Positions 13,858-40,658 of a stretch of DNA of 40,658 nt are shown in pieces. A program made the translations under genes and the position numbers. The DNA is from a virus. Location of the stretch: the IMG/VR virus record IMGVR_UViG_3300046816_000075, positions 1-40,658 of that record, one strand, 5' to 3'. Position 1 is the stretch's first letter. Each line of letters starts with the position of its first letter. The notes under the pieces are model-generated. The model was given only the letters and a program-made list of their open reading frames with translations. It had not been told where the DNA came from and did not search any database.

Positions 13858-13967
13858 TTGCAGCAGCCTCCTGCGCAGAAGCCGGAATGACAGGCCTGCG
13901 CGGGCGTGATGCCCGGGGTGCATGCCAGCAGCGCCAGCGCGGTGATGATCAGGATCAGGGTCTTCAC
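13854..13967 (-). CDS. 37-aa Cys-rich secreted lipopeptide
   Basis: GTG start with AAGGAGA upstream: MKTLILIITALALLACTPG, then a short TPAQA stretch and the Cys-rich end CHSGFCAGGCCK. A hydrophobic signal segment ends in a lipobox-like LLAC, so Cys16 may be lipidated; cleavage after AQA is an alternative. GTGA overlap with the HD gene and ATGA overlap with the zinc-ribbon gene tie it into the operon. It could be a membrane decoy or superinfection-exclusion peptide. No homologue recognised. Confidence 0.6.
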   Translation of the reverse strand: MKTLILIITALALLACTPGITPAQACHSGFCAGGCCK

Positions 13968-18552: not shown

Positions 18553-18582
18553 TTGCAACTACCTTTGCTTTGGGCTTATACT
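18553..18582 (+). promoter_or_regulatory. Promoter of the rightward recombination operon
   Basis: -35 TTGCAA (18553-18558), 18-bp spacer, -10 TATACT (18577-18582), about 24 bp before the ATG at 18606. Confidence 0.7.
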
Positions 18583-18605
18583 GTTGGATCACAGGGAGGG
18601 ATGCC

Positions 18606-19151
18606 ATGACCGCGCAGGTGCTGTCGTTGAAGACCCCGACCGCCAACGCCTTGATTGATCAGGTGAAAGCGGCATGGGACCGGGCCGACGAGAAAAAGGC
18701 CGACGCCGACGACTGGTACATCCGCACTGGCAAGCTACTGCTTGAACTGAAGCAGCGCACCGGGCACGGGCAATGGCTACCGACGCTCAAGAAACTGGGA
18801 CGCAGCCAGCGGCGCGCCCACGAACTGATGGAGTTAGCGGAGGACCCGAAGGCGCTGGAAACGCAGCGCGAACGCAAGCGCGAGCAGGAGCGCAAGGTCA
18901 GACGAAATCAGCGCCATGGCGCTGATTTGCCCGAACCTGTCGAGCCTGCCGACGACGAGGGGCAGACCCCGGAGGACCAGTGGCAGAACAGCCTCGCTAA
19001 CCTGTGCGGTGACGTTCTGGCGATGCAGTCCTACTGGGACAAGCACTTCAAGGGCTGGAAGCATTTCAAATGTCCGTCGCACATCAAGACGCTGGCGAGG
19101 GAGGCCGCGACGGAACTGACCTCCCTCACCACAGCAGTCACCGGGCGGTGA
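18606..19151 (+). CDS. DUF3102-like protein
   Basis: 181 aa, starting MTAQVLSLKTPTANALIDQV, with GGAGGG well placed. About 40-80 reads GKLLLELKQRTGHGQWLPTLKKLGRSQRRAHELMELA, the DUF3102 pattern (L...K....HG.W...L.....S.R.A..LM..A), which includes an HTH and occurs in phage and plasmid regulators with ParB-like neighbours. A charged ALETQRERKREQERKVRRNQR stretch follows. First gene of the rightward operon, so a regulatory role is plausible. Confidence 0.7.
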   Translation: MTAQVLSLKTPTANALIDQVKAAWDRADEKKADADDWYIRTGKLLLELKQRTGHGQWLPTLKKLGRSQRRAHELMELAEDPKALETQRERKREQERKVRRNQRHGADLPEPVEPADDEGQTPEDQWQNSLANLCGDVLAMQSYWDKHFKGWKHFKCPSHIKTLAREAATELTSLTTAVTGR

Positions 19152-19167
19152 CAGAAAGCGGGCCATT

Positions 19168-19698
19168 ATGGCACGGAAGACGACGCGGCTCTATTACGGG
19201 CTGCACGCCGAGACAGGCAAGCGCCTGTACTGGACGTTGAAAGTGAGGAACTCCACCAAGTCCGTCAAGCTGAACGGCACGGTGGAAGACGCGATGACGG
19301 GAGGGGCCGGGGTGTCGATTGGCTGCCACCTGTCCAACACGGCAAAGAACAACAGAGACAAGTTCGGGCACCCAGCCTTCTACATTTCGTTCACAAAAAG
19401 CATTGCCTTGGTGGTGACCAAGATCACCAATGGAAGGCCGTCGCATTGCATCCGCTATCGGCACGCCTACGGCAACTACGTTGACCTAAACGACACCGAC
19501 CCAAGCAAGAGCACCATCAAGAAGCACCCCGAACTGTTCGAGCGGCAGTTCACCTTGGGAGCCTACAAGGAAAGCAAACGCCATTGGCGGCCAGAGTACG
19601 GTCGCCGGGAGACTGGGCAGCGCAGCCGGTTCCAGATGGCCAAGGGCGAACTGGCACGCATGAAGAAGGCGGGGCTGGTACAGTTGCCATTGGCTTAA
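19168..19698 (+). CDS. Hypothetical basic protein, 176 aa
   Basis: Starts MARKTTRLYYGLHAETGKRL. Lys/Arg-rich throughout, with VSIGCHLSNTAKNNRDKFGHPAFYISFTKSIALVV and HCIRYRHAYGNYVDLNDTD. Three Cys/His pairs do not form a clear zinc site. More AT-rich than its neighbours. No family recognised. A GC-rich hairpin (19721-19744) follows it. Confidence 0.65.
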   Translation: MARKTTRLYYGLHAETGKRLYWTLKVRNSTKSVKLNGTVEDAMTGGAGVSIGCHLSNTAKNNRDKFGHPAFYISFTKSIALVVTKITNGRPSHCIRYRHAYGNYVDLNDTDPSKSTIKKHPELFERQFTLGAYKESKRHWRPEYGRRETGQRSRFQMAKGELARMKKAGLVQLPLA

Positions 19699-19720
19699 CT
19701 ATTCTGTGCAAATAACCTTT

Positions 19721-19744
19721 GCGGGGGGCTTACATGCCCCCCGC
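19721..19744 (+). terminator. Strong GC hairpin between operon genes
   Basis: GCGGGGGGC (19721-19729) and GCCCCCCGC (19736-19744) around TTACAT. The 9-bp perfect stem has no U-tract. It could attenuate transcription into the recombination genes. Confidence 0.5.
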
Positions 19745-19787
19745 TATTGCGTTACACTGTCAGCATCAGAACCAAGGAGGGATGCCA

Positions 19788-19988
19788 ATGACCAGTCCGT
19801 TCGCCCGCATGGCCGCCGGGATATGCTTCGGCCCGGGTGCCATGACCCGCCTCGACCGGGGGGCCTGCCCCGACTGCGGCGAGGAAAAGCCCATCCGAAC
19901 CCTGACCACCGAAATCGAGTTGCGCGAGTTTCACATCAGCGGGCTGTGCAAGGCCTGCCAAGACAAAGTCTTTGGGGACCACCGATGA
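19788..19988 (+). CDS. Zinc-ribbon protein, 66 aa
   Basis: AAGGAGG precedes ATG 19788 (ATG 19782 also in frame). GACPDCGEEKP and GLCKACQDKVFGDHR give CxxC pairs about 28 residues apart around a short beta segment (IRTLTTEIELREFHISG). A typical small zinc ribbon, probably protein- or DNA-binding. ATGA overlap with the ERF gene suggests a partner role in recombination. Confidence 0.7.
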   Translation: MTSPFARMAAGICFGPGAMTRLDRGACPDCGEEKPIRTLTTEIELREFHISGLCKACQDKVFGDHR

Positions 19989-20806
19989 CCGCCAAGACCC
20001 GCGAAGAGCAGCAGGAGAACTACGCCAAGCGCGCGGCGGCGAAGAAAAAGCGCAAGATCATGCCGAAGGCTGCCAATCAGATGGTCGTGCATCGACCCAT
20101 GTCCGACGAACAGGCGTTCGTTGCCCTGATCGACCGGGCCGCGCGCGACCCCGAGTTCGACGTGCAGAAGTTTCAGATACTGATGAACGCGCGCGCAGCC
20201 GACAAGGCGCAGCGCCAGCGCGAGGCCTTCGCCAAGGCAATGTCCGAGGTACAGGAGAAGCTGGAGCCCGTGCGGCGCGACTGTGAGAACCGGCAGACCC
20301 GCTCGCGCTATGCCTCCTACGAGGCGCTCGACCGGGCGATCCGCCCGACCTACACGCAGCACGGCTTTGCGCTGTCGTTCTCGACCGACCCGTCACCGAC
20401 CCCTGACAGCATGCGCGTCATCTGCGAGGTGTCACATCGGGAAGGAGCCTATCGCCAGCACCAGATCGACATACCCATCGTCACCAAGGGACCGCAGGGC
20501 AAGGAGGTGATGACGGCAACGCACGCTGCCATGTCGGCGAAGACCTACGGCATGCGCGGACTGCTGACCATGATCTTCAACGTCGCGTTAACCGACGACG
20601 ACGGCAACGCCGCAGGCAATGGCGGCCCGGTTAGCGATGCGCAACTGCTCGAACTGCAGGAGTTACTGCAGCAGAAGCCGCCGATTAACGAGAAATCGTT
20701 CTGCGCCTACATGGGCACCGACGAACTGATCAACCTGCCAGCGAAAAAGTTCGCCGAGGCGAAGGACGCCATCGCCGACAAGCGCAAGGGGATGGAGACG
20801 CTATGA
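19985..20806 (+). CDS. erf: ERF-family single-strand annealing protein
   Basis: 273 aa, starting MTAKTREEQQENYAKRAAAK. About 85-190 carries the ERF core: EVQEKLEPVRRDCENRQTRSRYASYEALDRAIRPTYTQHGFALSFST, VICEVSHREGAYRQHQIDIP and HAAMSAKTYGMRGLLTMIFNVAL. ERF proteins coat single strands left by an exonuclease and anneal them, allowing genome circularisation and recombination-dependent replication. The basic N terminus (KRAAAKKKRKI) is phage-specific. ATGA overlap with the YqaJ exonuclease supports a two-component recombinase. Confidence 0.88.
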   Translation: MTAKTREEQQENYAKRAAAKKKRKIMPKAANQMVVHRPMSDEQAFVALIDRAARDPEFDVQKFQILMNARAADKAQRQREAFAKAMSEVQEKLEPVRRDCENRQTRSRYASYEALDRAIRPTYTQHGFALSFSTDPSPTPDSMRVICEVSHREGAYRQHQIDIPIVTKGPQGKEVMTATHAAMSAKTYGMRGLLTMIFNVALTDDDGNAAGNGGPVSDAQLLELQELLQQKPPINEKSFCAYMGTDELINLPAKKFAEAKDAIADKRKGMETL

Positions 20807-21468
20807 ACACCCCGGAGGAACTGGCCGAAGTGCTGCTCGATGTCGCGCGTCCGACGATTATACAAGGTTCGCCAGAGTGGTTTGCGATGCGATGCGGAAA
20901 GGTGACTGCGTCCCGCATCGCAGACGTGATGGCGAAGCCGCGCGAGCCCGGCAAGGGCATGCGCGTGAACTACATGTGGCAGATCGTGGTCGAGCGGCTG
21001 ACCCGGCAGCCGATGAAGACCTACCAGTCGAAGACCATGGCCGAGGCGCACGAGTGGGAGCCGCTGGCGCGTGCCGCCTACACCTTCCACACCGACCACG
21101 CGGTCGAGCAGATCGCCTTTGTCGACCACCTCGACATTCCCCTGTGCGGCTGCTCCCCCGACGGCTTCGTCGGCAGCGAGGGGCTGGTGGAAATCAAGTG
21201 CCCCGAACTGACCGCGCACATGGACACCATGCTCAAGGACACGATCCCCAGCGAGTATTTCAAGCAGATGCAGTTTCAGATGGCCTGCACCGGGCGGCGC
21301 TGGTGCGACTACGTCTCGTTCAACGCCGATTTGCCAGAGCGCATGCGCAAGGCGATCATCCGCGTCGACCGTGACGGCACCGCGATCAGTGCCATGGAGG
21401 CGGAAGTTCGCAGCTTCCAGACGCAGGTCGACCTCGCGCTGTCCGCCTGCAAGGAGCGTTTCGGGTGA
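20803..21468 (+). CDS. YqaJ-type viral recombination exonuclease
   Basis: 221 aa. PD-(D/E)XK nuclease with SPEWFAMRCGKVTASRIADVM near residue 25, E86 in HEWEPLARAAY, D120 in CSPDGFVG, E130 and K132 in VEIKCPE, and Q155/Q157 in KQMQFQM. All catalytic positions are present and length is normal. It resects double-strand ends to feed the ERF annealing protein coded immediately upstream (ATGA overlap). The C terminus is a helical cap (SFQTQVDLALSACKERF). Confidence 0.9.
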   Translation: MNTPEELAEVLLDVARPTIIQGSPEWFAMRCGKVTASRIADVMAKPREPGKGMRVNYMWQIVVERLTRQPMKTYQSKTMAEAHEWEPLARAAYTFHTDHAVEQIAFVDHLDIPLCGCSPDGFVGSEGLVEIKCPELTAHMDTMLKDTIPSEYFKQMQFQMACTGRRWCDYVSFNADLPERMRKAIIRVDRDGTAISAMEAEVRSFQTQVDLALSACKERFG

Positions 21469-26610: not shown

Positions 26611-26922
26611 TCAGGTCCCTCCTGCTTTCTTGTTGACCTGCCCCGAGGATGATTGCTGCACCTGCGCCCTGAAGCCGTCCGCCGTCAGCGGCGGCTGCCC
26701 CTCCAGTGCGCGCAGGCGGTTCTCGTGGTCGAAGGCCAGTTCCTCTCCCGGCGTCGGTTCGGGTTCTGGCACGGGCGGCGGCACGTAGGGATCGGGTACG
26801 CCGCCGTCCTTGATCCACTGTTCATATTCGGCGCGATCACGGTTGGCCGGATCGTTGGGGATTGATGCGCCGTCTTCCGTACGGATGACGACATCGGTGT
26901 TGGTGAGTTGGTATTCTGCCAT
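26611..26922 (-). CDS. Tail fibre assembly chaperone-like protein
   Basis: 103 aa, starting [20 protein letters not shown] in a TAATG overlap with the fibre stop; GAGG in the fibre codons serves as SD. IPNDPANRDRAEYEQWIKDGGVPDPYVPP is the common phage fibre-assembly pattern, followed by Pro/Glu linker and a helix (ELAFDHENRLRALEGQ). It should help fold or trimerise the adjacent fibres. A deleted copy of this gene follows the second fibre. Confidence 0.7.
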   Translation of the reverse strand: MAEYQLTNTDVVIRTEDGASIPNDPANRDRAEYEQWIKDGGVPDPYVPPPVPEPEPTPGEELAFDHENRLRALEGQPPLTADGFRAQVQQSSSGQVNKKAGGT

Positions 26923-26936
26923 TAGAGCCTCGCGTC
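26903..26936. repeat. 34-bp direct repeat at the end of fibre 1
   Basis: Counterpart of 25286-25319 with one mismatch. Here the repeat runs into the intact chaperone gene. Confidence 0.85.
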
Positions 26937-29132
26937 TACAGTGATGTTGCCAGTGCTGCCGCCTATCGAAACCACCATTGCCCTTCCAGCAACACCAACA
27001 ACATTCGTCTGGCAGTCAACTTCAAGAGCAAGTGGCGTGGAGTAGTTGGTTGTAACGCCAGCCGATTGCAGTATTTGGCTTCCATCCAAAAAAGAAATCG
27101 TTGCTGGAATAATGACAGTTGGTGATGCTCGCATCGCTACCGGATGAGGAAATCCCATTCTTTGTGCCCACGGTTGAGCACCGCCAGTAACACCCTTTAG
27201 GGGTAATATTCCGTTGTAGAAGTAGCGTTTGCAGATCAGCAGTTCGTCTTGATACGCCCGCATCACAAACGGCGATTTCGTCTGCACTGGCGCTTCGTTG
27301 CCGGGGATGACGATGACGCCGGTGATGCGGAATTGGTCAGACGTTGCGCCGACACTATTCACTTGCCCCGGCGCGGCCATGTAACTCCCGGCGAGCCATG
27401 TGTTTGCTGACGGTGCGGTGACGCCGCTGCCCATGCTCACTGCAAAACAAAGATTTAGTCCAATCGTGTTGTCGATAACCCAAGTGCCAGCCGTGTCGCC
27501 GGGGATGGTGATGGTGTTGTACTGAGGAACGTCAGCGGCACTGTGCGTGTAGGTGAAAACGTAAGTGCGGTTGTTTGCGCCGTTGCGGACGCTGCCACTG
27601 TAAAGTCCTGTACGGTGATGATTGGACCAGAAGCAGAGTGTGATCGGTTGCGCGTTAGCGGTTCCCCACTGCAATCGCGTACAACGCCACCCCTCGATCA
27701 GTTGCTGAACAACATAAAATTCCGCTGCGCCAAGTGATGCCTGTGCCGTTGTAACAGACACAAAAAGCAACCAAGGAAACCCAGCGAACATTGCGTTTGT
27801 AAAAATGCCAGCAGAAAGGACCGCAGCCCCGCTGTATGCCAGCTTCCAGCCATCGCAAATGTAAGCTGTCCCTGTTGTGAGGCCAGAACCCTTCTCCTGA
27901 CTGACCTCCATTGCTCCGTTGATCTGCATGCCGCTGTAGGCCATCGCATCGAAGGGCGCGGCGTAGATGTTCTTGCGCGCCTGCTCCAGTTGCGGAATGG
28001 TCAGCGACTGCGCCACGTCGTAATGCACAACGGCACCGGGTGCGGTGTCGACGTAGGCCTTGCTGGCGGCATGCGCGGGTGCGGTCGGCGGCGTGACCAC
28101 GTTGAGCGGCCCGGCCATGGTGTCGCCCGCCTTGATGACGAAGCCGTTGATGTCCGGCTGCGGCGCGGCAATCACCCACTGCGTCATGTAGCGGATGTAG
28201 AGAAGCCCGCTGTCGCTCTCCCACCAGAGTGCCTTATCGGCTGCGCCGACTGGCGGCGTCGGCCCGACCAGCACCACTGCCTGTCCGGCCCCGAAGCGCG
28301 GGTCGTCGCCCGCCGCCACGGTGCCCGCCACGGTGCCGACGTCGAGGATGGCCGCGCCCTTCAGCCCGAGGTTGGTGCGCGAGGTCGGCGCACTGAGCAC
28401 ATCGGACAGGTTGGCGGAGCGCAGCATGTCGCCAGCGCCCGACCCGGCAGGTCCCGTCGCGCCAGTCGGACCTTGCGGGCCTGCTGGCCCGGTTGAGCCC
28501 TGCGGGCCGGTCAGCCCGGGAGGGCCTTGTGATCCGGTCGGCCCGGTCGGACCAATCGGCCCCCGGATGTCGGTCGCAAGACTGATGTTGGTGACGTAGC
28601 CCGCCGGGCCGATGTACATGCCGCTGGGCGGCACGTCGCCCACGCCGCCGGTCCACGCGACCACCTGTATGACCACGCGGTTGCCGTCATTCACCAAGGC
28701 GACGACAGGCAGCCACGTGGTCGGGATCGGGATGATCGCGCCGTCGCTGGTGTGCAGCGAGCGGTTGAACCCGTCCTTGAGTTGCGCCAGCGCGTGCCAG
28801 ATTTTGTCGTAGGCGATTTCCTGATCGCCCGCGTCCATGGTCGACAGCGTCGTGCCGTCGAGGTCTTGGATGAACTGCACGTCGCGCAGGATGGTCAACA
28901 CCTGCCCCACGTTCGGCGTGAACTGCAGCGTCACCGTCCCCGCCGTCTCGGTCATCGCCCCGGAGAGTTCGTAATGCGCGTGCTCCGTGAGGACGGTTTC
29001 GGTATTGGTCGGCGCATCGGTGAGGATGATCTTGACGTCGAGGTTCGACTGGAAGGCAAAGCCGGTCGAGAACACCCGCGTGATGCCGTTGCAGGTGTAC
29101 TGGACGCGCGCGAGGTCGGACGAGACTGTCAT
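26922..29132 (-). CDS. T7-type tail fibre with collagen-like repeats
   Basis: 736 aa, AGGGGTG before ATG. Residues 1-140 are the T7 gp17 N-terminal tail-attachment domain ([37 protein letters not shown]). About 190-235 is a Gly-x-y collagen-like stretch ([16 protein letters not shown]...[10 protein letters not shown]). A central region ([39 protein letters not shown]) follows, then a C-terminal receptor-binding domain from about 393 that is paralogous to the second fibre. It should bind the tail nozzle and recognise the host surface. The C-terminal half is more AT-rich, as in swapped receptor domains. Confidence 0.88.
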
Positions 29133-29141
29133 GCGTCACCC

Positions 29142-32100
29142 CTATTGCGATGGTACGGCAAAGCCGCCCCCTGCGGTTGGATTTCGTCGCGGCACCACTG
29201 AGGGCTTGCCGAAGCGGTCGGGCAGCGGGTCCTGCACCGGGCGTTCCATCGCTGTGGATACCGCCTGCTGGCCCTGCTCGATGCCTTGGCCCTGCAGGTA
29301 GGTCGGCAGCTTCTGCGTCTCGCGGTGCGCCTGACCTTTCTTGATTTCGTCGTAGAAGTCGGGGTAGCGCGTCTTTGCCTCCGACATGATCTGCTTCTGC
29401 GCCGCCTGCCGGTACGCCTGCGCCCACTCCTTGATGAACAGCGACTTGCCGCTGTCGACGCCCGTCTCGCCCGGGTCGCTGCGGGTCTTGTAGATTTGCG
29501 AGTAGATCGGGTCCTTGCCGCTGATCACCCGGTTGATGAAGTCCTCGAAGCCTATCTTCTCGCCGGTCTTCGGGTTGTACTTGAGTTCGTTGCCAGCCAG
29601 CCGCCGGTACATGTCGAGCACTTCGGGGTAGTCGCGGAAGTTGACGTTCACATTCTGAAACGCTGCCTTCCATGCGATGCGCTCAAGCCCGGTGTGCAGC
29701 CGCACCATTTCGTTGAAGGCCGGGTGATCGTTCTGCCAGCTAAGGCGGAACGGACTGACGTAGTTGTAGAGTTGCCCGCCCTTGCCCGCAGGCTGCTGCG
29801 CGATTTCGTGACCGAACACGTCGCGCATCGGGATCAGCTTGTCGGACAGGCCGGGAATGTCCTTGTAGAGCAGCGCGTCCATGAAGCTGGCGATCTGCCG
29901 CTGCTGCGGGTCCATGGCGTGGCCGACCGACCGGGCAAAGCCAACGCCCGGCAGCAGGTTCATCTGGCTCGATGCGAGGTCGCGGATGTAGGCCCCCATC
30001 GCCCCGCCCGCGCCGGTCTTGGCGCTGTCGTTGATGGCACCGAACAGCTTGCCCAGTCCCTGCAGGTAGGACTGGTCGGCGGTCGAGTAGGCGATGATCG
30101 AGGACACCGCGCCGGTCCACTCGTCGACCGTATCGAAGGCTTCCGGGTGGACGTCCTTGTTCGCCATCAGTTCGTTGACCGCACCCGCGAAGGCGATCAT
30201 CGGTGCAAGCTGGCCCAGCCCGCTGATTTCCACGTTCAGCTTGCCGATGCGCACCGACATGGGCCGGATGCCCATGCCCTGCTGCGCTTCGCTGTAGGGC
30301 TTCTCGCCGCGCATGGGTCCGGTGAGGTGGCCGTTGTGGGCGAAGTCGTAGAGCAGCGCCATGGCCGCCGACCCGGTCGTCATCTTCGCCAGCGCCAGCG
30401 ACTGCGCCGCCCCGCCAGCGGCAATGTCGGCCCGCCACTGCTCCAGCGCAGGGGCAATCGGCGAGTGCTCCATCGCCACCCGGAACAGGTTGGTCGGCGT
30501 GCGCACGTAGGGCAGCGTCATGTACAGCGGCAGGAAGTTGTTGCGCGCCCGCATGATGTCCGACGCGAACTTGCCCGGGTTGTTGTTGAAGGTCGCGTAC
30601 ATGGCGTGATCGACCGCCGCCAGCTTCACGTTCTCTGGCGGGTTGGAAATCATCTTCGAGACGGCGTCGGCGTAGTCCTTGCCGACCAGACCCTGCGCCA
30701 TGGCAGCCCGGTGCGCCTGCGCCTCGATTTCCCCGGAGTAGCCGATGACCTTGAAGAAGTCGTCCTCCGCCTGCAGGAAGCGCCCCGGGAGGCGCTGCAC
30801 GCCGCCGATGAAGTCGATGGCCTTGCCGAACGGGCTTTCGGTGAAGGCCTGCGTGGCTGCCGCCGACAGCCGCCGCTGCTGCGCCACCGAGGCTGCGGAC
30901 ACCCCGCGCGCCTGCGCCTGCTCGATGGGCGTGCCGGTCAGCATCGGCTCGAACTGCCGCTCGCCCGTGGTGAACGCCTTGCCTGCGGTGCGGAACGCCT
31001 CGCCCAAGGAGGAAAGCTGGCCGCGCACGTAGGCCATGGCCTCGCCCGGGGCGACACTCGTCTCCTGCCCCAGTATGGTGGCGAACTTCTCCGCCGCCCT
31101 GCGGTCGATCCCCTGCTGGATCGCCATGGCGACGTTGCCGACGATGTTGCGCACCTGCGTGGTCGGTCGCCACAGGTAGCCCATGGCGGTGGCCTCTTGG
31201 ATGGCGTCCTTCGACCACCGATACCAGCCGCGCGACAGCGCCGCGTTGATCGCGCCCGGGGGTTTCCCGGCGGCGTTGAGGTCGGTGATCATCTGCGACA
31301 GGCGCTTGATGCCTTCCTCGCCGCCGTGCTCGTCGAGCAGCACCTGCAGGCCGCGCGCCCGCGACAGCGGTCCCTGCTGATGCACAACACGCAATGCGCC
31401 GAGCGCGCGGCCTGCCTCCCCGGATGCGCCGAGGAACTGTTCGATCAGCGCCATATGCGTGATCAGGGCTTCGTTGACTTTCATGGCGTCGACCGCCGAG
31501 GCCGTCGGCTTCTGCGCCTCGATGGCCAGTTGTAAAAGCCGCTCGTCGGACGCCTGCATCAGTTGCCCGGCGGCGATGATCTGCTCCGCGTTGAGCGCCT
31601 GCCCGCTCTGCCGGGCGATCAGGTCTTCCGGCAGCAGGCCCAGCGCGTCGGCCATCTGCTTCTGCGTGGCCAGCGTGATCTGCCCGCGCTTGGCGTCACT
31701 GATCTTGCCCTTCATTTCCCCGGCGATCTGGCCGATGACGCCGTCGAGGTTGCCCTTCTCGATGTTGTCCCAGTTCACCTTGGTGCGGATGTCGGTCAGT
31801 TTCTGCGCCAGCGTGGCCTCGGTGACCGCCTTGCCGGTGACCTGACCGGGCACACCGACCTGCGCCGTCGGCACGTCCCATGCCTGTTTCGACCACGCCT
31901 CGTCCATCCCCTGCGCCACCTTCGCCTTCGACACCTTGATGGCGGCTTCCTGTTCCGGCGTCGGATTGACGATGCGCTTGTAGGCGTCGTACTCGCTGTG
32001 GAAAAGTTCTTGGACCTTGTTGATTTCCTTGGGCACGATCTGGATTTCGGCGGAGAGGCCGGGCGCGACCTCGACCTGCACGTGGATGGCGCGATAGCCG

Positions 32101-33794
32101 TCCACCGGCTTGGTGATCTTGTCGTCGACCTCCAGCACCTTGAAGCGGTTGCCGAGGTCGTTGAGCGCGTCGGCTGCCGCCTGCGGACTATCGACCGACA
32201 GCCGCCCGGCAACGTAGTCGCTGATGGCTTCGGGTGACCGCCCGGTGTCGATCTTGTCGGCAACGCCCTGTGCTGTCTTGACCCGAACCCCGTTCGGGGC
32301 GACGTCGGAGGTGGCGACCTCGACCCCGGGGGTATTGCTGGCAACGTCGGCCAGCGCCTGCTCCAGTTCGGGTTTAACCTTTTCGCCTGCGGCTAATAAA
32401 GCGTTGCTGTCGGTGGTTCCCTGCCTTATAATGGCGTTAGAGGTGTTTCTCGTGCCAAGCGATAACTCATCGAACTTAACCGTCGTGGCTGGCCCCGTGC
32501 TGGTCGACGGCATACCGCGCCGACTGATCGAACTGGCCGACGGGTCCGGCAGGGTCGAGAGTTTCGTCAATGGCGCTTGGACGCCCGGCGGCTGCTCCGT
32601 CAAGGACGTCTTGATGGGCACACCCGTCGACGAGGGCGCACCCGCTGGCGGCGCTGCCGCCTCGCCCGCCCCGGCGACCGGAGGCGTCTCAGAAACCGGC
32701 CCCTTGCCGGTCACACCCATGGCCGAAGGGCCTTCGCCCGCCATCCCCGCGCCCGCGCCAGTTGGCGGCCCCACTTCCACCGATACCGGCGGCACACCCG
32801 CCTGAGGCTTTCCCGCCACTGCATCGACGAGGCTTTGCGCCTGCTGCGTCTGCGCGTCCGCAGGTGCGGCAGCCGGGGGGACACCCGGTTGTGCCGCCGC
32901 ACCCGGCTGCACCTCGGTGGCCTTTGTGAACCGGCCAACGGCGGTGATGCCCCGCACGATCAGTTCCGCCGCCACCGTCCCGGCAAAGCCCTCCGCCGCA
33001 TGGCGCAGCCGGTTGAGGGCGGCGTTGTCGCCTGCCCCGGTCGCCAGCACGTCGCTGATCGGCCCCTGCAGCCCGGGGTACTGCTTGACGATCATGCTGG
33101 TCAGGTTCGGCTGGTTCGGATCGGTGCCGAGGAACATGCTGATCCCGGCGGCCCCGGGAGACGCAAGGAACTCCGGTATTTTCCCCGCCTTGAGCAGCGC
33201 CAGCGGCTGGCTGTAGCCCGCCATGAACTCGCTGATCGAGCGCACGATGCCGCCCGTGGTGGTGGTCGGAGCGCCGCCGATGCCCAGCACGTTCTCGCTT
33301 GAGAACTCGCCCTTGCCTGCCAGTTCTCTTATTTTGGCGCGGTTCTGCGCTTCCAGCGCCTGTTCCTCCGGGGTGCCGACCATGGAGGCAGGCAGGTGCT
33401 TGTTGAGGAAGTCGCCGAACTCGCCGACCGCCTGCCCGGCATGCCGGTAGAAGTCGAACGCGCCGCCGACGATCTGGCCCGGCGCTTCGAGGGTCGCGCC
33501 ATAGGCGACGTCTTTCGCCACCTTGGGGCCGAAGCTGCCCCAGAACGCGCTCATCTTGTCCGCCGTGTCGAGGTCGGACAGGTGCTGCGGCGCGTTGACG
33601 CCAGCCTTCGCCGTGCCTGCGGGCGCGTCCGGCTTGGACGGCTGCCCCGGTTCGCCAGCTTGCGCGGGCGGCGGCATCGGCGGTGCTGACGGGTCGGTGC
33701 CGTTCGACATTTCGTTGAGGATGCGCTGCATCGTCGCCGAGGTGTCGCGCTCGCCGTTCTTGGTCTGGAACACGCTGTCGCTGCTGTCCGCCAT
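29142..33794 (-). CDS. Large polyvalent internal virion (ejection) protein with RelA/SpoT-like domain
   Basis: 1550 aa, TGATG overlap with the upstream core gene. Position and size fit T7 gp16-like ejection proteins. Pro/Ala-rich linkers (about 290-430) precede a RelA/SpoT nucleotidyltransferase-like domain, about 475-610: VRVKTAQGVADK (R504, K506, K514), DYVAGRLSVD, KPVDGYRAIHVQV, SAEIQIVPKE and HSEYDAYK align with synthetase motifs including GYxSIH and EIQI. The remainder (from about 700) is helical and resembles large polyvalent protein-associated domains (GYLWRPTTQVRNIVGN, FLPLYMTLPYVRTPTNLFRVAM). No transglycosylase motif here. The domain call is by motif; activity and product are unknown. 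Confidence 0.8.
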   Translation of the reverse strand: MADSSDSVFQTKNGERDTSATMQRILNEMSNGTDPSAPPMPPPAQAGEPGQPSKPDAPAGTAKAGVNAPQHLSDLDTADKMSAFWGSFGPKVAKDVAYGATLEAPGQIVGGAFDFYRHAGQAVGEFGDFLNKHLPASMVGTPEEQALEAQNRAKIRELAGKGEFSSENVLGIGGAPTTTTGGIVRSISEFMAGYSQPLALLKAGKIPEFLASPGAAGISMFLGTDPNQPNLTSMIVKQYPGLQGPISDVLATGAGDNAALNRLRHAAEGFAGTVAAELIVRGITAVGRFTKATEVQPGAAAQPGVPPAAAPADAQTQQAQSLVDAVAGKPQAGVPPVSVEVGPPTGAGAGMAGEGPSAMGVTGKGPVSETPPVAGAGEAAAPPAGAPSSTGVPIKTSLTEQPPGVQAPLTKLSTLPDPSASSISRRGMPSTSTGPATTVKFDELSLGTRNTSNAIIRQGTTDSNALLAAGEKVKPELEQALADVASNTPGVEVATSDVAPNGVRVKTAQGVADKIDTGRSPEAISDYVAGRLSVDSPQAAADALNDLGNRFKVLEVDDKITKPVDGYRAIHVQVEVAPGLSAEIQIVPKEINKVQELFHSEYDAYKRIVNPTPEQEAAIKVSKAKVAQGMDEAWSKQAWDVPTAQVGVPGQVTGKAVTEATLAQKLTDIRTKVNWDNIEKGNLDGVIGQIAGEMKGKISDAKRGQITLATQKQMADALGLLPEDLIARQSGQALNAEQIIAAGQLMQASDERLLQLAIEAQKPTASAVDAMKVNEALITHMALIEQFLGASGEAGRALGALRVVHQQGPLSRARGLQVLLDEHGGEEGIKRLSQMITDLNAAGKPPGAINAALSRGWYRWSKDAIQEATAMGYLWRPTTQVRNIVGNVAMAIQQGIDRRAAEKFATILGQETSVAPGEAMAYVRGQLSSLGEAFRTAGKAFTTGERQFEPMLTGTPIEQAQARGVSAASVAQQRRLSAAATQAFTESPFGKAIDFIGGVQRLPGRFLQAEDDFFKVIGYSGEIEAQAHRAAMAQGLVGKDYADAVSKMISNPPENVKLAAVDHAMYATFNNNPGKFASDIMRARNNFLPLYMTLPYVRTPTNLFRVAMEHSPIAPALEQWRADIAAGGAAQSLALAKMTTGSAAMALLYDFAHNGHLTGPMRGEKPYSEAQQGMGIRPMSVRIGKLNVEISGLGQLAPMIAFAGAVNELMANKDVHPEAFDTVDEWTGAVSSIIAYSTADQSYLQGLGKLFGAINDSAKTGAGGAMGAYIRDLASSQMNLLPGVGFARSVGHAMDPQQRQIASFMDALLYKDIPGLSDKLIPMRDVFGHEIAQQPAGKGGQLYNYVSPFRLSWQNDHPAFNEMVRLHTGLERIAWKAAFQNVNVNFRDYPEVLDMYRRLAGNELKYNPKTGEKIGFEDFINRVISGKDPIYSQIYKTRSDPGETGVDSGKSLFIKEWAQAYRQAAQKQIMSEAKTRYPDFYDEIKKGQAHRETQKLPTYLQGQGIEQGQQAVSTAMERPVQDPLPDRFGKPSVVPRRNPTAGGGFAVPSQ

Positions 33795-36700
33795 CAGATG
33801 TTCTCCTGCAGGTCAGTCGCGTTGCGTGTGCGCATCACGTCTTCCGGCTTGATGGCGTTCCTGTCGTAGCCGTTCCCCTGCGGCGGCTGCTCGATGGTGT
33901 CAGCCGCCTGTCCGGCTTGGCTGCCGAACTGCGGCCCGGGCGTCTCGACCGGCGCGATCTGCGCGCTCATCTTCTTCGGCTGCTCTGGCTTGGGCTGTTG
34001 CGGCTGCGGCTTCACGCCCCGCTGCGCGTCGGTCATGCTGTCCTGCCACGCCTTGATATTCTGCCAACGTGTCTGCGCTTCCGCCTCGCTCATCAGTCGC
34101 TGCCCTTGGTCGTTGGTCTTTTGCATGTCGAGCGCCAGCTTTGCCTTGGCGTCGGCGATCACCGCCGCGTCGACGTTCTCCGGGTGTGTGCCGGGCGGGA
34201 AGTAAGGCGACAGCGGCAACCCCAGCCGCACCTGCTTGAGCCCCTCCATGCGGTAGCGGTCGTAGATGTCGCGCGTCTGCTGCATGACGATGGCGCGGTC
34301 CTTCAGCTTCTCCTTGTTGAGCGGATTGTTCGCCCAGTCGTCGAGTTCGACACGCGCGTCCGCCATCGAGCCGCGCATGATCGAGCCCTCGATGCCGGAC
34401 ATGCCCGGGGTCATCTTGTCTTCCAGCCACTTCTTGGCGTCGACCATCGGCGTCTGCACGCCCTGCGCCCAGTAGGCTTCGTTGCGCTCGACGTAGCTTT
34501 TGAGGTCGTCCTTGCCGACGTTGTTCTTCGCCACCCAGCCCATGATGTACTTCTGGAACTCGCCGGGCGGCATCGTGCGCACGCTGTTTTCAATTTCGAT
34601 GGTAGCGGTGTCGTTGCGCTGGACCGGCGGCTGGTCGCGAAGAACGTAAGCCGCCGACAGTTCGGTGTGCGACAGCCACGGCTTGGCGGCGTCAATCATG
34701 TCGGTCGTCACCTGCCCGTCGCGCGAGGCGTCGATCAGCTTCTTCATTTCGAGGTCGCCCTTCAGCTTCGTCATCTTGTCGCGGCTCTCCATGGTCTTCA
34801 CCATCAGCGCGCGTGCTTCCTCGTAGTTCTTGCCCCACTGCGTGAAGGCCGCCGACTGCGGGTTGACGTTCTTCGGGTTGAGCGTTTCGAGGTCGTTCGA
34901 CATTTGCACGGGGTCGGTCATCGGGGTCCAGCCCGAGGTGGCGGCGTTGAACTTGAGGTTCGCTTCCCGCTTGTCCAGCGCCACCTCGGCATCGCGCGGA
35001 CCCAGCACCATGGCCAGCGCCTGCGGCGTCCACGTCGGGTTGACGCCCGCGCTGCCATGCACCTTGATCGAACTTTCCTCTTGCCCGAGGTCGTCGTTGG
35101 CGCGCTTCTTCGCCTGATCCTGTATCTGCTTGCGATATGTCTCCACGGCGCGGAACTGGGTGTCCCAGTGATCTTGCCGCGCCTGCATTTCCTTTGGCGT
35201 CTCGCCCAGCATCGGCGCGGCCTGCGTGATGTCAGCCGTGCGCGGAACGGCGGCCCGCTGTTCGACCCGCGTCAGCCGGTCGGCGTAGTCGTTCGCCGCG
35301 CTCGACTGGTCGAACACGCCGATATGCTGCCCGGTCTGCTGGAACTGAGCGACCGCGCCGCTGTCCGACAGAACCTTGCTGCCGTCGCTCGACACCGTCG
35401 GGATCACAAACGAATTGCCCTGCGCGTTCTGGATAACGACTGGCCTCGACGTGGTTCCGCCCGTCGTCGTCGTGCCCGTACCCGGCTTGACCGTCGGTTG
35501 GCTGACCATCCGCGTCTCGCCGCGCTTGGCCGCGAAGTAGTCCCCGGTGTCCTTCTCCATGAAGGCGTGCATGGCGTCGTAACGCTTCTGCGCCTCGTCG
35601 ACAGTCTTGTACGACGGCAGCTTCTCCAGACCGTCCTTCTTCGCCGCCGCGATAGCTTCGTCGGTGGAGAGGATGTGGCCATCCTTCACGGTCGGGATCA
35701 GGTAGACCTTGTCGTCGATGGTGGCGGTGGTGACGAACAGCGTCGAGCGTGACCCCTGCGGGTTCTTGATGTCCGGCGGATTATCGACACCTCCGGGTCC
35801 GTACAGGTTCTTCAGGTGCGTGCGGTACAGGTCCCGCTCCAGCGGGGTCATCGTCAGCGCCTTGTCGGCCTCCGCCAGATGGTCGGGGCGCACAGGACCC
35901 TTGAAGTCTGTCACGCCCGCACCGCCGCTGACCCACTTGTCCTGCGCGTGGATGAAGTCGCGACTGGTGACATTCTCAACGCTGCCAGCCGCCGCCTTCG
36001 CCTCCTTGCTCATGTTGCCCCAGATTGCGATCTTGGCGACGGCATCGCTGCCGTAGAACTTGCGCACGTTCTGCCACGCCAAGCCGTCGGGGTTGGCAAG
36101 ATGCGCGCCCGCCCCCGCGAAACCCTGCTGGTGCATCAGGTAGAGTTCTGTCGCCGTCGGCGGGCGGCCATCGTGCGCCTTGGCAAACTGGGCGCTGAAG
36201 TCCGCCAGTTCGCGGGCTGTGGCGAAGACATTGTCCTCCGCGTTGAAGATGTTGCCGCCGGGCTTGCCGTACTTCTGGAAGATGTCGTCGGACAGTTGCC
36301 CCGCACCCTTGTTCCGACCAGTGACTGCGTTCGGGTTGCCGCTGCTTTCGATGTGCAGCACCACCTTCAGCGTGTTGGGATCGACGCCGGTCGCCGCCGC
36401 CGCCTTCTCCGCCACTGCGCCGACAGGCGTCTTGTCGATGGCATCGACCCGCTTCTGGCTGACCCCGCCAGCCGGTGGCGTGGTCTGCGGCAGGTCCTGA
36501 ATGTTGAGGCCCTTGCTGATCTGCGCCGCGCCGTTCTTGCGGAACGCCTCCGCCTCGTCGGCCAGCGCCGTGTTGAGCGGCTCGTTCTTCATCCGCTCGA
36601 CGTAGCCCTTGTTGACGCTGTCGTAGAGTTGCGTGCCGTACTTGATCTTGAGTTGCCGCTTGACGAACGGGTTGAGGTTGGTTTCGTCGACCGAGGTGTT

Positions 36701-37237
36701 GACGATGCCCATGGCCCCGTCGAGTTGCCCGGGGTTGGCCATCAGCGCGCTGTTCTGCTTCTCCACCGTGCCGTCGATCTGCAGTTCGGTGTACTTGTCC
36801 TTGTTGGCCAGCGTCTGCGTGTTCAACTGCGTGTTGACGTTGTTGTGGTAGACGTGCGCCGTGGTGTCGGCTTGGTTCTGGAACTTGCCGCTGACGCCCT
36901 GCCGCCGCGTGTTCCAGTCTTGAGTGGCGAAGTCCTGCACCGCCTTCGGGATGGTCGACACCTGATCCGGCGGCGTGTCGCGCTCAAGCTGCGTGCGGTA
37001 GGCGGTGACGGCGGCTTCGTGGTCGGACAGGATCGACTTGCCCTTGAGCGCCTCCTGCTCGTCGAACTGCTGGGTCAGCGCCCCGCCGAGGGTTTCCAGT
37101 CCGCCTGCGATGGCCTTGCCCGCGCTGGCCTGCGCCGTGCCGATTTCCGAACCGAACGCCTCCGGGGTGGCAAATGGCGTCTTGCTTGCGCCCGGGAGGT
37201 CGCTGACGTTCTGATCCCATGTCGGCACTTTCACCAT
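33794..37237 (-). CDS. Internal core protein with lytic transglycosylase domain
   Basis: 1147 aa, TGATG overlap with the gp14-like gene. N-terminal 250 residues are helical (LETLGGALTQQFDEQEALKGK...). An SLT/lysozyme-like domain spans about 268-410: VVLHIESSGNPNAVTGRNKGAGQLS with E297 as likely catalytic acid, and TATELYLMHQQGFAGAGAHL. It should open peptidoglycan during DNA ejection. Two related modules follow (VYLIPTVKDGHILSTDEAI; SFVIPTVSSDGSKVLSDSGAV...YADRL) at about 480-680. The C-terminal half is charged helix. Functions of T7 gp15/gp16 are distributed differently here. Confidence 0.85.
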   Translation of the reverse strand: MVKVPTWDQNVSDLPGASKTPFATPEAFGSEIGTAQASAGKAIAGGLETLGGALTQQFDEQEALKGKSILSDHEAAVTAYRTQLERDTPPDQVSTIPKAVQDFATQDWNTRRQGVSGKFQNQADTTAHVYHNNVNTQLNTQTLANKDKYTELQIDGTVEKQNSALMANPGQLDGAMGIVNTSVDETNLNPFVKRQLKIKYGTQLYDSVNKGYVERMKNEPLNTALADEAEAFRKNGAAQISKGLNIQDLPQTTPPAGGVSQKRVDAIDKTPVGAVAEKAAAATGVDPNTLKVVLHIESSGNPNAVTGRNKGAGQLSDDIFQKYGKPGGNIFNAEDNVFATARELADFSAQFAKAHDGRPPTATELYLMHQQGFAGAGAHLANPDGLAWQNVRKFYGSDAVAKIAIWGNMSKEAKAAAGSVENVTSRDFIHAQDKWVSGGAGVTDFKGPVRPDHLAEADKALTMTPLERDLYRTHLKNLYGPGGVDNPPDIKNPQGSRSTLFVTTATIDDKVYLIPTVKDGHILSTDEAIAAAKKDGLEKLPSYKTVDEAQKRYDAMHAFMEKDTGDYFAAKRGETRMVSQPTVKPGTGTTTTGGTTSRPVVIQNAQGNSFVIPTVSSDGSKVLSDSGAVAQFQQTGQHIGVFDQSSAANDYADRLTRVEQRAAVPRTADITQAAPMLGETPKEMQARQDHWDTQFRAVETYRKQIQDQAKKRANDDLGQEESSIKVHGSAGVNPTWTPQALAMVLGPRDAEVALDKREANLKFNAATSGWTPMTDPVQMSNDLETLNPKNVNPQSAAFTQWGKNYEEARALMVKTMESRDKMTKLKGDLEMKKLIDASRDGQVTTDMIDAAKPWLSHTELSAAYVLRDQPPVQRNDTATIEIENSVRTMPPGEFQKYIMGWVAKNNVGKDDLKSYVERNEAYWAQGVQTPMVDAKKWLEDKMTPGMSGIEGSIMRGSMADARVELDDWANNPLNKEKLKDRAIVMQQTRDIYDRYRMEGLKQVRLGLPLSPYFPPGTHPENVDAAVIADAKAKLALDMQKTNDQGQRLMSEAEAQTRWQNIKAWQDSMTDAQRGVKPQPQQPKPEQPKKMSAQIAPVETPGPQFGSQAGQAADTIEQPPQGNGYDRNAIKPEDVMRTRNATDLQENI

Positions 37238-37771: not shown

Positions 37772-40237
37772 CTACCCCGAAACTCGCTGGCCGATTATCA
37801 AGGCTGTGAGCGTAAATGGTAGGGGGTCCGCATGCTCTATGACTATATACCTGTCCCTGTCCCACTCGCCGTCGAACGGCAGTCGCTTGTCCCCGGAGAA
37901 CAGCGGGATCGCCGTCTCCAGCGGCGCGTCGGCGGATCGGTAGGGGATCGGGTCGAGCCCGCCATTGGCCGCCATCAAATCGGTGCCGTAGCTGCCGCCG
38001 ACCGAGTACTGCAGCCGCGCGGTGATTTCAAAGACGCGCCCGATTTGCCCTTGCGCGGTGCCCCCTTGAGCCCCCGCTTCGATGTGCAGGGTCCGGATGC
38101 GCGCCGTGTAGTTGTAGCCGATGAGCACCTTGGACGCCGGGATGTCGAGCGTGACCACCCCGTTGTTCACCGCCTTGCCGTGGTAGGGCACGCCGTCGGC
38201 CAGCATACTGACCAGCATGCCGTTGAGGTGCCACAGCCCGGTGATGGTGGTGACCGGCGGCCCGACGTACAGCAGCGCATCATCGAGGTAGAAGCCGTCC
38301 TCCAGCGCCGCACCGTCTTCCAGACCCGGCTGGCCGACCTCGACATGCCGCACCGTCTGCCCGCCGACCACCCGCTCGACGATCATCCACAGTTCGTCAC
38401 CGCCCAGCCCCGGGATGGAGGCGACCCCGCGCGCCAGTCCGCCGCCGCCAATCTGGTGGTGATGCCAGCCGACCACCTGCTGGTCGCGCTCGTAGGTCAT
38501 CGCCACCATGTCGCCGTCGGCGCGCGCGTACCAGATCATCAGGTCGGGCACCGCCACGTAGGCCCCTTGGATCAGTCCGGGGGCGGTGATGTGCTCCGAC
38601 AGGATGGTGAGGTCGGGGGCGGCGTAGCTGTCGGTCTGGAAGTTGTAGACGAACTCGCGCAGGCGGCGCGCCGGGTTCTCGTTCCTGCCCTTGCGCTGGG
38701 TGAACAGGATGGCGGGACCGGCCCGCACCGGCTTGACCAGCGCCGTGCCGAACGATGTTTCACGTGACACCTTGATATTGGTCGAGGTGATCGCCTCGTT
38801 CGCGTTCGAGGCCGCCACCGTGTACTCGCCCGAGGTGGCGTTGACCACCAGCCGCTTGGTGGTCGACAGGTAGCGGATGGCGTCGACCTGATCGGAACTG
38901 ATGGTGTAGTTGTAGGACAGGTCGGCCTTGTCGCCGTCCTTGTAGTTGAGGTAGGCGTCGATGTCGCTGCCCCACAGCGTCGTCGGCTGCCATTCCGTGT
39001 TGGCTGCCACCAGCCGCTGCTCGTGGAAGGTGGCGGTGGTCGGGTAGCCCCGATAGTCGGACCACGCCCCCTCCTGCCACATCCATGACGACCGGGCGGA
39101 GTAGGCGGTGTAGGGCGTGCGGTACTTGACGATGTTGGCGTAGGCCTGCTGCGTGTTGATGACGTCGGTGACCTGCACCACGCAGTAGCCGGAATGTTCG
39201 TAACTCATTTGCGCGACTTCGCCCGCCGTGCCGTAGAACACGTCGACGATGCCGCGCGTGTGCGTCGGGTAGGATGCGGTCGAGGCCATAACGCCACCGC
39301 CGCCCGACACCACAAAGTACACGTTGCCCTTGTACTCCCAGAAGGTGTTGTTCGCGACGGTGACCGTCGCCCCCGGTGCCCATGTCGCATAGCCGAAGGA
39401 TGAGCCGTTCGACTGCTCCCAGATGCGCCACAGCGAGCCGACATGCGCGTCGTTGAGCATCGGGTAGTTGAACGTCATCACCGCCGAACCGCTCGCCACG
39501 TCGAGCGACACGCGGATGCCGTCGTTGATGTTCATGTCGAGGAAGGGGCCTTCCTCGACGTTGCCGGTGTTGAGCGTCCATGACGCATGCGACAGCCGCT
39601 TGAGCAGCGTGATGGGCCAGTTCGAGGTGAACAGGAACAGCGTGTCCGCCGACTGCGTGAAGGTCATCGTGGCGATGTCCTGCGCGGAGTAGAGGGTCGC
39701 CACCTCGTAGATGCGCGAGGATACGCCGCCGCTTGTGTAGGGCGAGTAGGTGCGGCTGTCGACGTTGATGACCAGCGTCGTCGCCGTGCCGCCGGTCACC
39801 GTGAACTCGCGGTTGTTAAGCTGGTGCGTGCCGCCGATGTTGGTGAAGATGACGCGGTCGGTGGTGGAAAGCCCGTGCGCGGCGGCGCAGGCGATGGTGG
39901 TGGTGACCCCCCGCGTGATGCCGACGATGGCGCTCTGCACGTCGAAGATGATGCCTTGGTTCTTGAAGAAGCGGATATAGCCCGGGCCGAACTCCAGCAT
40001 GTAGGCCTGCGTCGTAGAGAATACGAACGGCACAAGGATCGAGTTCGGATTGCTGTCCTTGACGGTCGACACGTTGAGCGTGCCGCCGCGCTTGCGCGCG
40101 CCGCCCTGCGGCAGCACCACCACGTTGGTGAGTTCGCGCGCGCCGTTCTGGTACTTGGCAAGGTCGACCCGCCCGTAGATGCGCGGGGATATTTCGCCAG
40201 CCGTGAAGTTGGTCAGGATGCTGTTGACGGTGCCCAT
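37772..40237 (-). CDS. Tail tubular protein B-like (T7 gp12 nozzle)
   Basis: 821 aa from ATG 40237 in a TGATG overlap with tubular A (GTG 40240 adds one residue). MGTVNSILTNFTAGEISPRI, YGRVDLAKYQNGARELTNVVVLPQGGARKRGGT is the family hallmark. Later come YMLEFGPGYIRFFKNQG, ERVIFTNIGG-like beta repeats, ARSSWMWQEGAWSDYRGYPTTATFHEQRLVAANTEWQP and DGDMVAMTYERDQQVVGWHHHQIGG. The length is close to T7 gp12 (794 aa). It forms the hexameric nozzle of the short tail. Confidence 0.92.
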   Translation of the reverse strand: MGTVNSILTNFTAGEISPRIYGRVDLAKYQNGARELTNVVVLPQGGARKRGGTLNVSTVKDSNPNSILVPFVFSTTQAYMLEFGPGYIRFFKNQGIIFDVQSAIVGITRGVTTTIACAAAHGLSTTDRVIFTNIGGTHQLNNREFTVTGGTATTLVINVDSRTYSPYTSGGVSSRIYEVATLYSAQDIATMTFTQSADTLFLFTSNWPITLLKRLSHASWTLNTGNVEEGPFLDMNINDGIRVSLDVASGSAVMTFNYPMLNDAHVGSLWRIWEQSNGSSFGYATWAPGATVTVANNTFWEYKGNVYFVVSGGGGVMASTASYPTHTRGIVDVFYGTAGEVAQMSYEHSGYCVVQVTDVINTQQAYANIVKYRTPYTAYSARSSWMWQEGAWSDYRGYPTTATFHEQRLVAANTEWQPTTLWGSDIDAYLNYKDGDKADLSYNYTISSDQVDAIRYLSTTKRLVVNATSGEYTVAASNANEAITSTNIKVSRETSFGTALVKPVRAGPAILFTQRKGRNENPARRLREFVYNFQTDSYAAPDLTILSEHITAPGLIQGAYVAVPDLMIWYARADGDMVAMTYERDQQVVGWHHHQIGGGGLARGVASIPGLGGDELWMIVERVVGGQTVRHVEVGQPGLEDGAALEDGFYLDDALLYVGPPVTTITGLWHLNGMLVSMLADGVPYHGKAVNNGVVTLDIPASKVLIGYNYTARIRTLHIEAGAQGGTAQGQIGRVFEITARLQYSVGGSYGTDLMAANGGLDPIPYRSADAPLETAIPLFSGDKRLPFDGEWDRDRYIVIEHADPLPFTLTALIIGQRVSG

Positions 40238-40658
40238 CACACGTCAGACAGACGTGCCTGCTCCCATGTGGACAGCGGCATGATGTCGGGCGAGCCGTCC
40301 ATGGCGTCGGCGAACTTGGCGTCGGCGGATATTTCCGCGAAGGCCTGCTGATACATCTTCACGTCGTTGGCGCTGTCGGTGAACGGCTTGCACCAGCGCC
40401 ACGCCAGCCGCGCGGCAATGGTCGCCACCAGCCCGGGGTCGAACTCGTCGGTTGGCTTGCGCGCGATGTAGGTGAAGCGGAAGCCCTCGATGTTGCAGTG
40501 AATATACTGGCCGTGCCGGGCGAACGGCTCGATGTTGTTCGACACGTCGCCGTCATTGGTGCCCTCGACGTACACCGTGCGCACGAAATCCGCAGGCAGC
40601 CGGAAGGCCAGCGCGTAGCCGAACAGCGGCTTGGCGGTCGGGTCGGAGGCCAGTTGCG
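40237..40658 (-). CDS. Tail tubular protein A-like, C-terminal part, cut by window edge
   Basis: Open from the right edge to TGA at 40237; in the circle it begins at base 336. Visible residues include FVRTVYVEGTNDGDVSNNI, YIHCNIEGFRFTYIARKPTDEFDPGLVATIAARLAWRWCKPFTDSANDVKMYQQAF and the end WEQARLSDV. YIARKPTDEFDPGLVATIAARLA matches the YTxxVxDxxxFDPxFxxALAxRLA pattern common to podophage tubular A proteins. Its stop overlaps the start of tubular B. Confidence 0.87.
   Translation of the reverse strand, partial: QLASDPTAKPLFGYALAFRLPADFVRTVYVEGTNDGDVSNNIEPFARHGQYIHCNIEGFRFTYIARKPTDEFDPGLVATIAARLAWRWCKPFTDSANDVKMYQQAFAEISADAKFADAMDGSPDIMPLSTWEQARLSDV
40510..40658. repeat. Terminal direct repeat, right copy
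   Basis: Equals bases 1-149 except G at 40636 (A at 127). Supports closing the sequence into a circle of 40,509 bp. Confidence 0.9.

Follow-up and report, generated by a model that had tools for sequence, protein, structure and literature searches.

RelA/SpoT homolog (RSH) synthetase domains have previously been recognised in phage polyvalent proteins and in MuF fusions, for which an alarmone-like shut-down of the host or altered host expression was predicted (Iyer et al. 2017, PMC5512222). MuF toxins of the Apk2 type, which synthesise (p)ppApp, are accompanied by immunity genes for a hydrolase (Aph1) and an inhibitor (IapK), and a phage 80alpha protein of the Apk2-MuF kind is termed an ejection protein in literature cited in that study (PMC12226406). 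MuF toxins were proposed to be delivered together with phage DNA (PMC5576092), with the capsid fusion being read as the delivery signal (PMC5576092, PMC11699363). The principle that polyvalent and MuF capsid proteins of phages can carry RelA/SpoT domains is already published. Here we describe an RSH synthetase domain within a 1550-aa protein of the gp16 type (podoviral internal virion, or ejection, protein) encoded by a short-tailed phage, whose sequence of 40,658 nt (IMGVR_UViG_3300046816_000075, positions 1-40,658; this whole stretch is referred to as the window) also contains a gene for a small alarmone hydrolase (SAH).

As in the polyvalent proteins of Iyer et al., the domain sits in a large phage protein for which entry together with the DNA is predicted; unlike there, the carrier is a gp16-type podoviral ejectosome protein and no second effector domain is recognisable using Pfam. 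Neither internal virion proteins nor gp16 or Autographiviridae came up when the main text of PMC5512222 was searched by term. With the Apk2 MuF toxins, the locus shares the fusion of an RSH synthetase to a phage head protein and an alarmone hydrolase gene carried by that same genome. It differs from them in that neither the protein nor any of its pieces matched a MuF domain when scanned with Pfam, in the internal rather than C-terminal position of the domain (residues 447-640 of 1550), in the 18 kb that separate the hydrolase gene from it, and in bearing A-x-H in place of G-x-N. Fold as well as donor, metal and acceptor residues are those of RelQ/RelP (the small alarmone synthetases SAS1/SAS2) and of toxSAS enzymes, from which the domain is set apart by its embedding in a virion protein, a donor-helix Ser-to-Gly exchange and EIQI-VP instead of EIQI-RT. 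The carrier resembles T7 gp16 and podoviral internal virion protein D in gene order and size class and shares flanking homologous regions with podoviral relatives, yet contains ~200 additional residues, namely the RSH domain, and T7 gp16 itself is unmatched by sequence. As in the gp15 homologs of K1E and K1-5, the transglycosylase is found in the protein at the gp15 position rather than in gp16 (PMC8954989). The hydrolase has the full HD motif set and the fold of Mesh1/SAH proteins, but is phage-encoded. In the literature searched, consisting mostly of openly accessible papers, we found no report in which a gp16-type ejection protein contains an RSH domain, and the combination of a phage hydrolase with a T7-type ejection protein bearing an alarmone synthetase appears to be unreported.

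A RelA/SpoT synthetase domain in the 1550-aa protein

Residues ~447-640 of the protein almost certainly constitute a genuine RelA/SpoT-type synthetase domain. The excised domain matched PF04607 (RelA_SpoT) with 28.1 bits (27.9 in a second scan; curated cut-off 27; E 2.6e-6), relatives scored 33.7 and 29.5 bits, and all rows of the family alignment (7/7) matched this family, the best with E 1.3e-7. PF04607 was not detected when the full-length protein or the genome was scanned with default filters, which is most likely a filter effect, since the excised domain does match. None of the remaining pieces of the protein matched a Pfam family; hence, neither LPD38 nor any other polyvalent domain can be claimed. 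An independent profile was derived solely from three RSHs that do not belong to the clade (PhRel, the toxSAS of phage Phrann; a betaproteobacterial chromosomal RelA; and an RSH of a Nitrososphaera provirus). With this profile, the domain scored 46.1 bits, whereas the highest score among 500 shuffles was 6.8 bits and no other piece of the protein exceeded -1.4 bits. AlphaFold modeling based on the window and six relatives (pLDDT 84.1, pTM 0.80), followed by a Foldseek search of the PDB, returned 63 matches at E <= 0.001, headed by 6fgk (E 5e-7, probability 1.00), with moderate TM-scores (query-normalised TM-score, TMq, up to 0.64). Among the 50 matches listed, all were RSH proteins (SAS2/RelP, SAS1/RelQ, exported SAS, Tas1, CapRel, FaRel2, Rel, SpoT and RelA), the top ones being SAS1/SAS2 small alarmone ((p)ppGpp) synthetases. 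In BFVD, the domain matched several phage proteins of 1000-1300 aa, some of which carry the polyvalent-protein domain names 'DdrB-like' or 'ART-PolyVal-like'. Separately, a recurring weak phosphoketolase match in the protein was rejected, as it stops short of the acceptor motif.

A preliminary description of this DNA had proposed a RelA/SpoT synthetase-like domain inside a virion ejection protein. The PF04607 score above cut-off, the independent profile and the structural matches bear out the former, and gene order together with matches to internal virion protein D bears out the latter at the family level. The proposed range of 31965-32372 indeed corresponds to residues 475-610, the whole domain being wider. 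The listed motifs, from R504-x-K506 and K514 through D526-x4-R531-L532, GYRAIH and EIQI to H599 within HSEYDAYK, lie at the residues assigned to them (Table 1), and the statement that RelA/SpoT modules occur in phage polyvalent proteins was correct (PMC5512222). A comparison with RSH and toxSAS structures had been suggested; AlphaFold and Foldseek returned the synthetase fold, with the R/K, Tyr, Glu and Gln residues of the pocket all present. As for the remark that the G-loop Ser is Gly, the exchange is real (G510) but the label is wrong: the equivalent FaRel2 residue, S70, contacts the triphosphate of the donor ATP, the G-loop being the beta3-beta4 acceptor loop (PMC11782079). The alarmone hydrolase gene (13964-14479) had been missed.

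To assign catalytic residues, the structure of FaRel2 with an ATP analogue (PMC11782079) was used as the key, with correspondence set by motif order and spacing. In FaRel2, R64, K66, K74, R95, E145 and Q147 are donor residues, D90 is the metal ligand and Y128 the acceptor Tyr (PMC11782079). R504, K506, K514, D526, R531, Y567, H571, E583, Q585 and H599 were invariant in the window and its relatives (L005, L006, L012, L017, L021 and L022), down to 49% identity, and G510, the S70 equivalent, is Gly across the clade. Where three RSHs from outside read EVQIRT or EIQIRT, the clade reads EIQIVP. Pairwise dN/dS over residues 490-610 ranged from 0.11 to 0.32 (NG86), a sign of purifying selection on the complete catalytic set, and the domain was better conserved than most of its surroundings: between the window and L017 it is 72% identical, as opposed to 47-61% elsewhere in the protein, and between the window and L022 61%, as opposed to 43-52%, only the final 190 residues being higher (64%). 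Constraint on fold and active site would be the simplest reading of the dN/dS values and this identity pattern. In our judgement, the domain is probably an active pyrophosphokinase.

Acceptor signatures of the domain are mixed. S-x-H is the signature of (p)ppGpp synthetases and G-x-N that of Apk2 (PMC12226406); at syn3, the clade has A-x-H and thus departs from both, and at syn4 it has I-V instead of the I-R of (p)ppGpp-type enzymes. Among the acceptor signatures compared, GYRAIH is nearest to the GYRAVH of PhRel. However, swapping of syn motifs left specificity unchanged, indicating that sequence motifs do not set it (PMC12226406). The size of the positive patch at the acceptor site distinguishes tRNA-type from alarmone-type enzymes (PMC11782079), a large patch pointing to nucleotide acceptors and a small one to tRNA.

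Table 1 Features of the RSH-bearing protein, its neighbouring genes and the hydrolase gene in the window
Feature	Position	Strand	Basis or correspondence
gp16-like internal virion (ejection) protein with RSH domain, 1550 aa	29142..33794	-	ORF; phrog_6651 'internal virion protein' 3.5e-15; tblastn; profile
RelA/SpoT-type synthetase domain, residues ~447-640 of 1550 aa	31875..32456	-	PF04607; AlphaFold; Foldseek PDB and BFVD; null test
Donor-site motif RVKTAQGVADK, residues 504-514 (R504, K506, G510 at the Ser position, K514)	32253..32285	-	FaRel2 R64/K66/S70/K74
Mg2+/adenine motif DYVAGRL, residues 526-532 (D526, R531)	32199..32219	-	FaRel2 D90, R95
Acceptor-site motif GYRAIH, residues 566-571 (Y567, H571)	32082..32099	-	FaRel2 Y128
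EIQI, residues 583-586 (E583, Q585), followed by VP	32037..32048	-	FaRel2 E145, Q147
HSEYDAYK, residues 599-606 (H599)	31977..32000	-	His invariant in family alignment
N-terminal region common to RSH-less gp16-like proteins, residues ~170-300, hydrophobic in relatives	32895..33287	-	family profile
C-terminal region common to RSH-less gp16-like proteins, residues 863-1314	29853..31208	-	tblastn; family profile
Protein at gp15 position, 1147 aa, transglycosylase (SLT) at residues 276-351	33794..37237	-	PF01464 E 0.0016, under curated cut-off; phrog_22520
gp14-like internal virion protein, 176 aa	37237..37767	-	phrog_418 1.2e-19; PF24072 T7_gp14 1.3e-4
Tail fibre, directly downstream of the 1550-aa protein, as in T7	26922..29132	-	PHROGs tail families
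Tail tubular protein B-like, upstream	37772..40240	-	phrog_376 1.5e-177
Mesh1-like small alarmone hydrolase, 171 aa	13964..14479	-	PF13328 (HD_4); MESH1 chain; AlphaFold/Foldseek; synteny

Carrier protein, hydrolase gene and distribution of the domain

The order of genes (tail tubular B-like, gp14-like, transglycosylase protein, 1550-aa protein, tail fibre) puts the RSH-bearing protein in the place of T7 gp16. In tblastn, it matched proteins of ProddE and other podoviruses that are named 'internal virion protein D', and the family profile matched the gp16-like proteins of ProddE (4e-44), CRP-804 (1.1e-36) and Gjalp (2.5e-34), the first of which in turn matches gp16 of Prochlorococcus phage P-SSP7. 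In all three, the match falls into two blocks, N-terminal (~170-300(370)) and C-terminal (~890-1280), with the RSH block between them left unmatched. As the span between the blocks amounts to ~590-670 profile positions in the clade and to 330-410 residues in ProddE, CRP-804 and Gjalp, the ~200-residue module explains most of the size gap. PF04607 was found in none of seven RSH-less gp16-like relatives, but the same search also missed the window protein, and the family-profile comparison is therefore the better evidence for absence of the domain from these relatives. Based on these sequence comparisons, membership of the 1550-aa protein in the podoviral gp16/internal virion protein D family of ejection proteins is supported. 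When compared to its counterpart in L005, the C-terminal half of the protein (29142-31215, residues ~860-1550) is nearly identical (dS 0.02-0.03) whereas the N-terminal half is not (dS 0.31-0.44), a pattern suggestive of recombination with its junction close to residue 860. In L021 (2234-6877), the RSH-bearing protein is split into three overlapping frames, reflecting either an assembly error or real frameshifts.

Residues 411-1118 of T7 gp16, located between two membrane regions (TMH I and TMH II), have been assigned to a cytoplasmic ring after ejection (PMC8954989). Moderately hydrophobic stretches were observed at ~197-284 in relatives and at 1101-1206 across members of the present family (1186-1206 in the window), with the RSH domain lying in between, and T7 gp16 displays the same layout by the same crude measure. 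Since profile and hhalign comparisons with T7 gp16 gave no match, the topology argument is one of analogy; as such, it supports a cytosolic position of the RSH domain with access to ATP. We judge delivery of the domain into the host cytosol to be somewhat more likely than not.

In a PF13328 search of the window, the SAH open reading frame matched at 6.4e-13 (43.5 bits; cut-off 27.2). Its product matches the human MESH1 chain (3.8e-13), retains the HD motifs (H36, H60-D61, E64-D65 and D122) and is modeled by AlphaFold with a pLDDT of 91, Foldseek giving TMq values of 0.84-0.89 to MESH1 and of 0.55-0.61 to the (p)ppApp hydrolase 7smg. The gene is present and syntenic in all RSH-positive clade contigs that reach the locus (4/4: the window, G004, G005 and G008; 59-71% identity in the last three) and absent from all complete RSH-less gp16 relatives (7/7), these observations not being phylogenetically independent.

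Searching phages and plasmids with the domain by tblastn yielded no matches or weak ones only (E 0.009-10), several of which hit genes annotated as RelA or as other RSHs, and an initial scan of genome contigs detected no relative. In a second such scan, we found one ordinary chromosomal RelA (L041) and one protein on a partial contig of an alphaproteobacterial metagenome-assembled genome (L040), the latter, at 34%, being the nearest copy not located on a viral contig. More distant podoviral clusters (L051 and L054-L057) carry the domain in the gp16 region, as the C-terminal part of a protein of 1029-1055 aa, which is followed by an 839-858-aa protein and then a tail fibre, an order in which the gp16 role may be split across two genes. 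In L058 and L052/L059, the domain resides in shorter proteins. Because its branches are long and its support is weak, the RSH tree does not decide between single and multiple acquisition. Bordetella phage PHB04 (L061, 4077-7037) encodes a 494-aa protein directly after the portal with an RSH-like domain in which GYRDLM replaces GYR-x-x-H; genes for an SAH and a serine/threonine phosphatase come after it, and this pairing is independent of the clade.

Proposed delivery of a pyrophosphokinase at entry and other readings

The reading towards which we lean, if by a little, is that of a T7-gp16-type ejectosome protein with a built-in RelA/SpoT pyrophosphokinase, delivered at entry and later balanced by the phage hydrolase. 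The 1550-aa protein, with a catalytically competent domain built into it, would be packaged in the head and ejected before the DNA, leaving the RSH domain on the cytoplasmic face of the inner membrane. There, the domain would transfer pyrophosphate from ATP to an acceptor 3'-OH, resulting in synthesis of (p)ppGpp or (p)ppApp or in modification of the tRNA CCA end, and host growth and translation would be throttled prior to any phage gene expression. The hydrolase, made later, would remove the product, such that phage synthesis could proceed and the producing cell would be protected. In favour of this proposal, we count fold and catalytic residues of the domain, the selection acting on it, the family identity of the carrier, the topology by analogy with T7 gp16, the hydrolase gene and the recurrence of the domain in the gp16 region of L051 and L054-L057, and we regard as precedents the polyvalent proteins (PMC5512222), the Apk2 MuF toxins with their hydrolase (PMC12226406) and PHB04. 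Several observations weigh against it. The Arg that follows EIQI in other RSHs is Val here and the donor-helix Ser is Gly; T7 gp16 had no detectable homology to the 1550-aa protein; SAH-like matches occurred in 136 of 50,697 phage records, with an RSH synthetase domain in none of the six best-matching ones checked; the 35.7-kb contig of L051 is RSH-positive but contains no SAH; and synthetase and SAH genes lie ~18 kb apart in the window rather than adjacent as in Apk2-Aph1. A more far-reaching view, in which the ejection motor of a podovirus lineage would serve as a syringe, injecting a pyrophosphokinase for alarmones or tRNA that re-sets the host on entry, and the matching hydrolase would be supplied later, i.e. 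a virion-borne on-switch and a gene-encoded off-switch for the stringent response, seems doubtful to us.

Were the domain delivered and active, its acceptor could be the CCA end of tRNA, as for PhRel, FaRel2 and CapRel, which would amount to a stop of translation at entry that the SAH reverses. GYRAIH is closer to the PhRel motif than to GYRS-x-H or the Apk2 G-x-N, and chains of CapRel and FaRel2 are among the Foldseek matches; the top structural matches, however, are (p)ppGpp synthetases, and exchange of such motifs left specificity as it was (PMC12226406). We rate this acceptor as rather unlikely. A retained structural module, either catalytically inactive or acting as a regulator that binds nucleotides or DNA, and serving core assembly or ejection, would fit the residence of the domain inside a structural protein, the loss of the Arg after EIQI in the clade and the further losses in distant relatives, where L054/L055 lack the His and L058 lacks the R of R-x-K. 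Yet all donor, metal and acceptor residues are invariant in the clade, constraint on the domain exceeds that on most of the surrounding protein, and gp16-like proteins of other podoviruses manage without an RSH domain; we consider such a role improbable. Action late in the producing cell rather than at entry, e.g. against superinfecting phages or in lysis timing, is quite improbable in our estimate: although the protein is encoded among late virion genes and the hydrolase of this genome could balance the synthetase, fusion to an ejection protein is an odd route to a cytosolic enzyme, and the MuF capsid fusion has been interpreted as a signal for delivery (PMC5576092, PMC11699363).

As to the hydrolase, it could be unrelated to the synthetase, that is, a generic phage SAH that clears host (p)ppGpp in starvation and co-occurs with the domain by chance of descent. 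We place this only slightly below even chances. The 136 phage records and the absence of an RSH synthetase domain from those six checked agree with it, as does the description of a phage SAH that has no synthetase partner (PMC12846349). On the other side stand the conserved synteny within the clade and the absence from RSH-less relatives, two observations that are not phylogenetically independent, and the independent synthetase/hydrolase pairings of Apk2-Aph1 and PHB04. Because hydrolases also occur in phages without a synthetase, functional pairing is unproven, and the SAH being the partner of the synthetase domain is a tentative proposal that we would not quite back at even odds.

If active and delivered, the domain would represent an alarmone synthetase working from the ejectosome before phage transcription, with a hydrolase in the same genome. 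T7-type ejection proteins would then carry swappable enzyme cargo besides the transglycosylase, and it could be tested cleanly at this locus whether alarmones are raised, rather than just lowered, by phages at entry. The locus would also provide a naturally occurring enzyme pair that does not belong to the temperate, MuF-borne systems studied so far.

Further features of the window and its relatives

No integrase was found in the window, and no promoter-like site in the late gene cluster. A search for a phage-type RNA polymerase was uninformative, as the control itself gave no match. An Erf-like annealing protein and a RecE-like exonuclease are encoded at 18570-21468 (+), on the strand opposite to the virion genes. 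The open frames at the two ends of the window (1-336 and 40237-40656, (-)) do not join in frame; gene order suggests that the genome is circularly permuted. In some RSH-less relatives (L025, 974-1435; L027, 1394-1981), an acetyltransferase gene opens the internal virion protein cluster, one of these being annotated as a ribosomal-protein L7/L12 acetyltransferase. Finally, the tail tubular B-like protein (37772-40240, (-)) matches the FCCH family of E1 ubiquitin-activating enzymes in Pfam above cut-off (6e-9), perhaps owing to a common beta-barrel.
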